Assembly: GCA_014376695.1 (NCBI GenBank)
Contig: JACMRA010000014.1
Coordinates: 1-57,133 of the forward strand
Direction: 5' to 3'
Length of the DNA: 57,133 nucleotides
From: Minisyncoccota bacterium
Lineage (GTDB): Bacteria > Patescibacteriota > JACMRA01
The position numbers and the translations under genes are program-made. This document shows positions 14,085-19,026 of this stretch, in pieces (within the stretch, counting starts at the first letter, position 1; each line of letters starts with the position of its first letter). Below the pieces are notes generated by a model. It saw nothing but the letters and a program-made list of their open reading frames with translations, ran no database searches and had not been told where the DNA came from.

Positions 14085-14342
14085 ATGACTGCAATAATCA
14101 CCAAAATCAAAAAACCTAAAGTCAAAAAAACATCTATCGTCACCTATAGATTTTCAGTAACCCCAAAAATGAGCCAAATGCTCAATCGTTTGGAAGAGCG
14201 TTTTGTGATGTTAGATCGAACTGACATAGTCAAACTCTCTATTTCTAGACTTCTTGAGGCTGAGAATCTTTTGGGTACCAGTCCGAGTTTTGATGAGGCT
14301 TTGGACTTTGTGAATTCTATAAAAGATGAGTGGCGGCAGTAA
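14085..14342 (+). CDS. Probable ribbon-helix-helix antitoxin of a PIN toxin
   Basis: The 85-residue protein has a basic N-terminal tail (KIKKPKVKKTS), then a beta-strand (IVTYRFSVTP), and two helices (KMSQMLNRLEERFVM and RTDIVKLSISRLLEAEN). This strand-helix-helix order is that of CopG/MetJ-like antitoxins, which bind the promoter DNA as dimers. It lies 3 nt upstream of a PIN gene, the classic position. The C-terminal part (SPSFDEALDFVNSIKDEWRQ) would bind the toxin. Related small proteins occur at 25604-25861 and 31747-32037 without toxin neighbours. Confidence 0.75.
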   Translation: MTAIITKIKKPKVKKTSIVTYRFSVTPKMSQMLNRLEERFVMLDRTDIVKLSISRLLEAENLLGTSPSFDEALDFVNSIKDEWRQ

Positions 14343-14345
14343 TTT

Positions 14346-14771
14346 ATGCCAAATACATTCAAAGTAATACTTGATAACAATATTATTATCTCCCACTTGA
14401 TGACTAATAGAGTCAATATTATAGATGATATAATCAGGCTTGCAATAGCCAAAAAAATTCAAATTTATATATCTACACCGATATTGAACGAACTAAAGAT
14501 CGCACTTCAGTACCCAAAAATTAAATCTAGACTTCTCCCAAATAAAGCAGCTAAGTTCATGGCTTGGTACAAGTACGACACTCAATTAATCACCGTGACA
14601 GCTAGTCTCAACACCTGCCGAGACCCCAAAGACAATAAATTCTTAGAATTAGCAAAAACAGTTATGGCCGATTATATAATCACCGGCGACCAGGATTTGC
14701 TGGTCTTGGGTAGCTTTGGTGATACGCAGATTGTTAGACCGAGTGAGTTTGCAAAGATAGAATCAGTGTGA
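14346..14771 (+). CDS. PIN-domain toxin
   Basis: PIN toxins are Mg2+-dependent RNases that cut tRNA or rRNA when their antitoxin is lost. The 141-residue protein resembles the COG1569/TIGR00305 group. It has an acidic residue in VILDNNIIIS (about residue 9), a Glu in PILNELKIALQ (about 48), DPKDNKFLELA (about 96-106) and the DYIITGDQDLLVL core (about 110-124) with the final Asp. All positions expected for the metal site are present, so it should be active. The gene is 3 nt after the antitoxin and a C-terminal fossil of a sister copy lies at 11838-11924. Confidence 0.85.
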   Translation: MPNTFKVILDNNIIISHLMTNRVNIIDDIIRLAIAKKIQIYISTPILNELKIALQYPKIKSRLLPNKAAKFMAWYKYDTQLITVTASLNTCRDPKDNKFLELAKTVMADYIITGDQDLLVLGSFGDTQIVRPSEFAKIESV

Positions 14772-16951: not shown

Positions 16952-17260
16952 TTAGTGTTTTTTTGCGTAAGCTACCCCCTCACTGGGGACTCCCAAGTTT
17001 TTTCCTGGACCCAATAGAATGCTGTCAGTTGTCGGCCTCCCATTGGCATCGAACTTGCTTCCGCACATATAGCTGTCGTCTTGGTCGGTAATCCGACCTA
17101 AGTAATCCTTTGACACGGTTACTATCATGATCAATGACTTGCCGCTTGCGCATTTTAATGCTGTGGCATAACTCGTTATTTCTGGTTTACAGGAAGAAAG
17201 ACTCAGGGAAAGTCCAACTCCAACGCAAAACAACAGAAGGTTTTTCAACCAGATTTCCAT
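16952..17260 (-). CDS. Small lipoprotein, copy 1
   Basis: From ATG 17260 (preceded by GGAG at a good distance) the gene encodes 102 residues. The first 24 form a lipoprotein signal peptide with lipobox LSSC (Cys24). The mature part is about 78 residues with two more cysteines (LKCASGKSL and SYMCGSKFD) and the conserved end LLGPGKNLGVPSEGVAYAKK. It would be lipid-anchored at the outer face of the membrane. It is closely related to the gene at 17484-17795. The function is unknown; the two conserved Cys could form a disulfide. Confidence 0.85.
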   Translation of the reverse strand: MEIWLKNLLLFCVGVGLSLSLSSCKPEITSYATALKCASGKSLIMIVTVSKDYLGRITDQDDSYMCGSKFDANGRPTTDSILLGPGKNLGVPSEGVAYAKKH

Positions 17261-17308
17261 GACATACTCCAAAAAACGTTTAACTCGATCGAATTGAGTG
17301 ATTATGAA

Positions 17309-17483: not shown

Positions 17484-17795
17484 TTAGTGTTTCTTGGCGT
17501 AAATCACTCCCTCCTGGGGGACGCCCAGATTTTTACCTGGACCTAGTAGAAGGCCGTCGGTTAACGGCTTCCCATTTGAATCGAACTTATTACCACACGT
17601 GTAAGTGTCGACTTGGTCCGTAATTCTGTTAAGGTAATCTTTCGATACCGTAACTGTCATTATTAAGGACTGGCCACTGGTACATTTTAACATTGTGGAG
17701 TAACTTGTCACTTCCTCGCCGCAGGAAGCAAGACCCAGACAAAGTCCAGTCAAAACAGGAACGAAGGATATCTTTTTTACGGTAAAAATTTTCAC
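17484..17795 (-). CDS. Small lipoprotein, copy 2
   Basis: I choose the GTG at 17795 because AGGAG sits 10 nt before it and the product then aligns end to end with copy 1; a longer frame to 17831 lacks this. The product has 103 residues: a lipoprotein signal with lipobox LASC (Cys25), then a mature domain matching copy 1 (LIMTVTVSKDYLNRITDQ, LLGPGKNLGVPQEGVIYAKK) with both later cysteines kept. Both copies seem intact, so selection maintains each. Role unknown. Confidence 0.85.
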   Translation of the reverse strand: MKIFTVKKISFVPVLTGLCLGLASCGEEVTSYSTMLKCTSGQSLIMTVTVSKDYLNRITDQVDTYTCGNKFDSNGKPLTDGLLLGPGKNLGVPQEGVIYAKKH

Positions 17796-17848
17796 AGGGT
17801 CTGAGCTCCTAAGATTACAAGGTTTATCCACCTAATTGAGATTTTTAG

Positions 17849-18067: not shown

Positions 18068-18146
18068 TTCACGATTCTATATAGATTTTCGTGAACTGAA
18101 TTAGTTTTTTGAGGCTTATTCACGGTTTTTTTGACATTTACGTGAA
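18068..18146. promoter_or_regulatory. Tandem operator upstream of fic: two TTCACG-N16-CGTGAA sites
   Basis: Two identical dyads occur at 18068-18095 and 18119-18146. Each is TTCACG, exactly 16 nt, CGTGAA. The second has 8-bp perfect arms (TATTCACG / CGTGAATA). Their starts are 51 bp apart, close to five helical turns, so bound dimers would lie on the same DNA face. The second site covers the TTGACA box. Confidence 0.8.
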
Positions 18147-18159
18147 TATAAGTTAAATT
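18131..18159 (+). promoter_or_regulatory. Promoter of fic, within the operator
   Basis: TTGACA (18131-18136), 17-nt spacer, TAAATT (18154-18159). ATG is at 18166, so transcription would start at or next to the start codon: a leaderless message repressible by the dyad that overlaps the -35 and spacer. Confidence 0.7.
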
Positions 18160-18165
18160 TGGGTT

Positions 18166-19026
18166 ATGAATCAATCTATTACCGACTTGCGTGCTCGCTA
18201 TTATGCTCTTGCCACAAGCAAGTCTAGTCTGCTCAATCTTATCTTGGATAACGAGGTAGCTGAGCAAGTCTATAATTCCAACGCCATCGAAAATAGTACA
18301 TTGACCCTCGAGGATACCGAAAAGATTCTGTCAGCCATTGATCTTGATAGATTTGTTAATCAACGCGAGTTATTTGAGACAACCAACTTGGCCCGAGTGG
18401 TTAAATATATTGGCCAAAAAGCCAGCACGGCTCAAATCACCAAAGAAATAATTCTCCTACTTCACAAAATGCTTATATCTAATATACGGGATGAGGTCGC
18501 GGGAAGGTTTCGAGGCCCTGATGAGTGGGTTCGGGTCGGTAACCACATTGCCCCAAATCCAATGCTGGTAGAGACCTTGATTGACGAATTGATTGCTAAG
18601 TATCTAAGTAGTGACCAGTCGATTATTGATAAGATTGCCCAGTTTCATCTCCAGTTTGAACATATTCATCCTTTTGTCGATGGCAATGGGCGGATTGGGC
18701 GGGTCTTAATTAACTACTTGTTGATACGCGAAGGCTACGTCCCGATTAATATTAAGTTTCTTGACCGGAGTTTGTACTACGAAGCTTTTGGCCAATATGA
18801 TAAAACTGGGGACATTAAGATTATGGCAAATATCGTTGGAAAATCACTAAAAAATAGCTACCACAAACGCCTAGCCTACCTCGAAAACAAAAAAATTATT
18901 AAGCTATCAGAGTACGCCAAAATAACCATTCAATCTCACTCAAATCTTTTGAACAAGGCCAGTCGCCAAACTATCGAAGCTTTTTTGGAGCGGGGCATCT
19001 GGAAAATTGGAGTAGCTATTGATTAA
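18166..19026 (+). CDS. Fic-domain protein (AMPylator), class II
   Basis: Fic enzymes transfer AMP (or other phosphate groups) to a hydroxyl of a target protein. The 286-residue protein has the complete motif HPFVDGNGRIGR (about 168-179), whose His is the catalytic base. Before it, near residue 38, is SNAIEN, matching the inhibitory helix [ST]xxxE[GN]; its N-terminal position makes this a class II, self-inhibited Fic protein. The Fic-N-like start (MNQSITDLRARYYAL) and the C-terminal helical region that often carries a winged helix follow the common large-Fic layout. The gene has a distinctive double operator and probably a leaderless message. No antitoxin partner is adjacent. Confidence 0.92.
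   Translation: MNQSITDLRARYYALATSKSSLLNLILDNEVAEQVYNSNAIENSTLTLEDTEKILSAIDLDRFVNQRELFETTNLARVVKYIGQKASTAQITKEIILLLHKMLISNIRDEVAGRFRGPDEWVRVGNHIAPNPMLVETLIDELIAKYLSSDQSIIDKIAQFHLQFEHIHPFVDGNGRIGRVLINYLLIREGYVPINIKFLDRSLYYEAFGQYDKTGDIKIMANIVGKSLKNSYHKRLAYLENKKIIKLSEYAKITIQSHSNLLNKASRQTIEAFLERGIWKIGVAID

Follow-up and report, generated by a model that had tools for sequence, protein, structure and literature searches.

A conserved half-site array on the fic promoter of Patescibacteria, the probable autorepression operator of a class II Fic protein

The stretch of DNA analysed here (the window; 57,133 nt) carries a fic gene whose own -35/-10 region is overlapped by a palindromic array of short half-sites. 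The features of the locus, in window coordinates, are as follows.
18068–18073, + strand: half-site H0, TTCACG, exact; an outer, optional site
18090–18095, - strand: half-site H1, CGTGAA on the + strand; core kept in 38/40 orthologs
18119–18124, + strand: half-site H2, TTCACG; core kept in 38/40 orthologs
18131–18136, + strand: -35 box TTGACA, between H2 and H3
18141–18146, - strand: half-site H3, CGTGAA on the + strand, in the -35/-10 spacer; core kept in 34/40 orthologs
18154–18159, + strand: -10 box TAAATT, 17 nt past the -35 box and 6 nt ahead of the ATG
18166–19026, + strand: fic gene, 286 aa, Fic/DOC family
18277–18294, + strand: class II inhibitory-helix motif SNAIEN, residues 38–43
18667–18702, + strand: catalytic Fic motif HPFVDGNGRIGR, residues 168–179
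18892–19014, + strand: predicted winged-HTH-like C-terminal domain, the putative operator-binding part, residues 243–283

The product of the gene matched Pfam PF02661 (E 3.5e-21), and its nearest solved structure is FICD (3e-24). Residues 168 to 179 (HPFVDGNGRIGR) conform to the Fic motif HPFx(D/E)GN(G/K)RxxR and residues 38 to 43 to the inhibitory-helix pattern (S/T)xxxE(G/N). By these motifs the protein is classed as a class II Fic protein with predicted AMP-transferase activity. Among orthologs, the catalytic residues H168, P169, F170, G173, G175, R176, G178 and R179 are invariant. A search of the whole structural model with Foldseek returned Fic-fold proteins as its only significant matches (E ≤ 0.001). 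A role in phage defence is possible, since PADLOC matched the protein to SoFic (E 1.2e-30) and also to the candidate system PDC-S04. Assignment as a SoFic equivalog was rejected at 44.4 bits against a cut-off of 550 (NCBIfam NF046030).

Elsewhere in the window, 3.4 kb upstream of fic, a small ORF (14085–14342, +) is followed by a PIN_3/TIGR00305 toxin gene (14346–14771, +), together a probable type II toxin-antitoxin pair. Two tandem duplicated lipoprotein-like ORFs (16952–17272 and 17484–17831, both on the - strand) are 67% identical; the single one tested gave no Pfam match.

The half-sites were first described, in an earlier note made from the window alone, as two copies of TTCACG-N16-CGTGAA set 51 bp apart. 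Both copies are exact (18068–18095 and 18119–18146), and no such dyad arose in 100 shuffles of the window. The note was also right that the second copy has extended arms (TATTCACG/CGTGAATA) and that this copy lies over the fic promoter, where it contains the -35 box. Its statement that the two spacers are identical did not hold, as ATTCTATATAGATTTT and GTTTTTTTGACATTTA share their length of 16 nt and differ in sequence. The genome scan that it called for (955,781 bp, 78% complete) returned these two exact copies and no others. When up to two mismatches were allowed, 12 matches were found against 19 for a reversed control pattern, so there was no excess. A search for a genome-wide regulon of the motif gave nothing above background, and in this genome the array is restricted to fic.

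To assess conservation, 380 Patescibacteria genomes were searched for the family at E of at most 1e-40. Members, a few of them remote, were found in 46 genomes. Named contigs from further collections (WWE3, Kerfeldbacteria and Berkelbacteria among them) yielded five relatives, of which one duplicates a contig of genome G006. Of 44 distinct orthologs, one is cut at a contig end, leaving 43 with readable upstream DNA. The SNAIE of the inhibitory helix is invariant across the 43. A pair of the type CGTGAA-N22/23-TTCACG precedes fic in all 43, and 40 possess three half-sites (H1 CGTGAAw, H2 wTTCACG, H3 CGTGAAw) at distances of 28/29 between starts for H1-H2, 22/23 for H2-H3 and 50 to 52 for H1-H3. 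The median array score in orthologs was 33, compared with at most 13.6 in 132 shuffles. In the remaining three, divergent, orthologs an H1-H2-like pair stands alone at a distance of 28 (CGTGAA/TTCACG or GGTGAA/TTCACC). The motif is therefore conserved upstream of homologous fic genes, the point on which the note had staked its operator reading, and it accompanies them in many unrelated lineages of these ultra-small bacteria. A multiple operator on the fic promoter is strongly supported by this conservation across the phylum. The unit itself had been misframed. An exact H0 at this distance is present in just 4 of the 40 orthologs, the window included, so that the inner arms of the two N16 dyads (18090–18124) form what is, by ortholog comparison, the best-conserved pair. 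Other exact matches to the motif in 287 genomes were for the most part lone, dispersed copies, about as frequent, as judged by eye, as those of the reversed control. On viral contigs only distant Fic genes were found (at most 40% identical), and those Patescibacteria Fic genes that are less closely related and end in a different C-terminal domain mostly lacked strong dyads.

Further sites were seen in two other genomes. In G198 an extra fic-type operator with a -35 box (L201:6486–6514) lies 3 kb upstream of fic with just a 15-codon ORF behind it, and is probably a relic promoter. In G206 (C5:6706–15185, L202) four TTCACGCTCGG...CGTGAA sites stand 2 to 4 kb apart, perhaps within repeated coding units.

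The position of the promoter within the array is likewise conserved. In most orthologs TTGACA starts 11 to 13 nt past the start of H2, that is, between H2 and H3, and a TATAAT-like box usually follows 15 to 18 nt beyond it, which places H3 in the promoter spacer. The -10 box is 6 to 13 nt from the ATG in many orthologs. In the window it ends 6 nt before the ATG; the fic mRNA is therefore probably leaderless, and the array would consequently lie outside the transcript. This geometry bears on the idea that the dyad is a mobile-element terminal repeat, a terminator or an RNA element. The patchy distribution of fic (46/380 genomes) and its lack of conserved neighbours make it probable that the gene is passed from genome to genome, as a mobile-element repeat would lead one to expect. 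Nevertheless, the far end of the gene carries no copy, no terminator was found, the sites lie upstream of the predicted transcription start and the -35 box occupies a fixed position among them. We give this explanation almost no credence.

Since the -35 box sits between H2 and H3 in most orthologs, the array appears ideal for repression. Activation by Fic, or alternation between activation and repression, might be read from the location of H0 and H1 upstream of the -35 box and from the presence of several half-sites, which permit alternative occupancy. However, the -35 box is bracketed by H2 and H3, the latter within the promoter spacer, an arrangement typical of repression; the near-consensus promoter boxes need no activator; and the Fic protein CccR, discussed below, acts as a repressor (PMC9755527). 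Activation is accordingly regarded as very improbable.

We next consider which protein might bind the array. The C-terminal residues 243 to 283 of Fic are predicted to form a strand-helix-helix-beta hairpin (pLDDT about 87–95). Searches of Pfam and of PDB sequences gave nothing significant for this domain, with no convincing HTH match in Pfam, and Foldseek gave no statistically significant match. The best geometric match to a DNA-binding protein was the MerR-like domain of BldC in its DNA-bound structure (6ama; 1.6 Å over 42 columns, Foldseek E 0.96, non-significant). The domain is thus predicted to be winged-HTH-like, a label that rests on the predicted topology. Its residue 264 (K/R versus A) correlates with half-site position 1 (26/0 versus 7/7), a covariation that is confounded by phylogeny and is therefore not used here as proof.

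Alternatively, fic might be controlled by an unlinked host regulator distinct from Fic, for which the array would be the binding site. Dyads of this kind can serve regulators in general, and self-binding by Fic is something that we infer. The earlier note had suggested looking for an associated regulator gene, yet no gene family recurs beside fic at more than three of the 44 loci. Nor was an adjacent antitoxin gene of the type II kind, or any conserved small antitoxin ORF, found at the fic loci; clusters of small ORFs near fic were rejected as antitoxins, since they proved to be translated operator and fic sequence. The note's view of a toxin-like enzyme without an antitoxin gene is upheld insofar as a separate antitoxin was not found; none is required, as the class II inhibitory motif is built into Fic itself. 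An unlinked regulator would, moreover, have to be present across dozens of host families and act on almost nothing but fic.

The distribution of operator types is also relevant. On the Fic tree, operator flank and spacing change just two or three times, and each of the host families f10, f26 and f50 has Fic genes with differing operator types. By this comparison operator type tracks Fic clade rather than host, which speaks against an unlinked regulator, although it would also arise if gene and promoter were inherited together and is alone no proof of self-binding.

Two other Fic classes occur in the phylum, one with a C-terminal HTH_17 domain (below the Pfam cut-off) and one with an N-terminal XRE domain (HTH_3). 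Promoters of the HTH_17 class possess the dyad GGTTGGATA-N15-TATCCAACC and variants around the -10 box, and those of the XRE class possess AACTTTATAAAGTT near the -35 box. The window-class motif was found in 42 of 43 members of its own class and in 0 of 34 of the HTH_17 and XRE classes, and the XRE motif in 17 of 19 XRE members and 0 of 58 elsewhere; p-values for these associations are descriptive only, as the motifs were defined on the same, related sequences. The individual HTH_17 loci (L205–L212, L215 and L220) show dyads of types GGTTGGATA, GGTACGATA, TTAATATGG and TATCGGATA, and the XRE loci (L221–L239) show AACTTTATAAAGTT-type palindromes, in many cases accompanied by another copy, complete or partial.

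Furthermore, Fic classes that share a genome have different operators. G342 encodes three Fic genes with three operators (L057, L162 and L166), and in G052 (L005, L032) and G157 (L068, L222) each co-resident class again carries its own. These pairings are most simply explained if every Fic protein recognises the operator of its own gene. We consider an unlinked regulator improbable. The note's reading of a regulator site, probably for a dimer, is retained, with an operator conserved across the phylum, but Fic, with its own C-terminal HTH-like domain, is by far the best candidate for the binding protein, and the description of the regulator as being of unknown identity is probably wrong.

Precedents exist for such a mechanism. 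A proposal that HTH domains fused to Fic might regulate fic expression was made in 2009 (PMC2686095). In Yersinia pseudotuberculosis, CccR (YPK_0951) protects a palindrome near the -35/-10 region of its own gene in footprints and represses that gene (PMC9755527); it was the only experimental case of Fic-HTH autorepression in the literature searched. Like the protein described here, it is a class II Fic enzyme with an operator on its own promoter, tested in CccR (PMC9755527), and its C-terminal HTH would have its counterpart in the predicted winged-HTH-like domain. CccR is, however, a secreted effector of 380 aa, compared with 286 aa for the Patescibacteria Fic, and its operator is a single dyad (AGATAATCAT-N26-ATGATAATCT) rather than three to four short half-sites at 28/29 and 22/23 spacing. 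In the Coxiella burnetii protein CbFic2, also class II with a C-terminal HTH, DNA binding through that HTH is described as altering the (de)AMPylation state of the enzyme; its HTH is of the DeoR type and it was studied as a histone modifier. The searched passages of the same paper contain no own-promoter operator for CbFic2 and describe DNA binding by SoFic as undemonstrated (PMC10628234). SoFic of Shewanella (the anti-phage Sofic; PMC12249575) likewise combines an inhibitory helix with a C-terminal winged HTH, at about 370 aa. Phd/Doc offers a further parallel as an autorepressed promoter of a Fic-fold toxin gene (PMC2686095 and general knowledge), but there the separate antitoxin Phd both binds DNA and neutralises, whereas here the inhibitor and the putative DNA-binding domain share one chain. 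Our literature search for Fic and autoregulation in Patescibacteria/CPR found no papers. Given CccR, CbFic2 and the 2009 suggestion, the mechanism is known in kind; what is new is the architecture of three or four half-sites, its spread across the phylum and the way in which HTH and operator have been exchanged in parallel.

Taken together, we propose that the array is very probably the operator for autorepression of fic, bound through the C-terminal winged-HTH-like domain of Fic. The protein, probably as a dimer, would dock physically on the CGTGAA half-sites, with H1-H2 as the main pair and H3, sometimes also H0, as additional half-sites. Hints as to the placement of the dimer are that H2-H3 (22 bp, about two turns) fits one face of the helix and that H1-H2 is the better conserved. 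Bound Fic would mask the -35 box together with the spacer up to the -10 box, excluding RNA polymerase, and such repression would keep a potentially toxic AMP-transferase scarce. A link between enzyme state and transcription may also be envisaged. In a more elaborate version, which we think rather unlikely, the odd-numbered array (a 28/29 and a 22/23 pair sharing H2) would be a switch: Fic dimers would select pairs according to oligomeric or nucleotide state, coupling DNA binding, AMPylation/deAMPylation and transcription within phylum-wide mobile one-gene modules that exchange HTH and operator jointly.

The prediction of autorepression now extends to dozens of Patescibacteria lineages and specifies operators for three Fic-HTH classes. 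If correct, autorepression would account for how a potentially toxic Fic protein can spread as a one-gene unit that lacks an antitoxin, with inhibitor, repressor and enzyme all in a single polypeptide.
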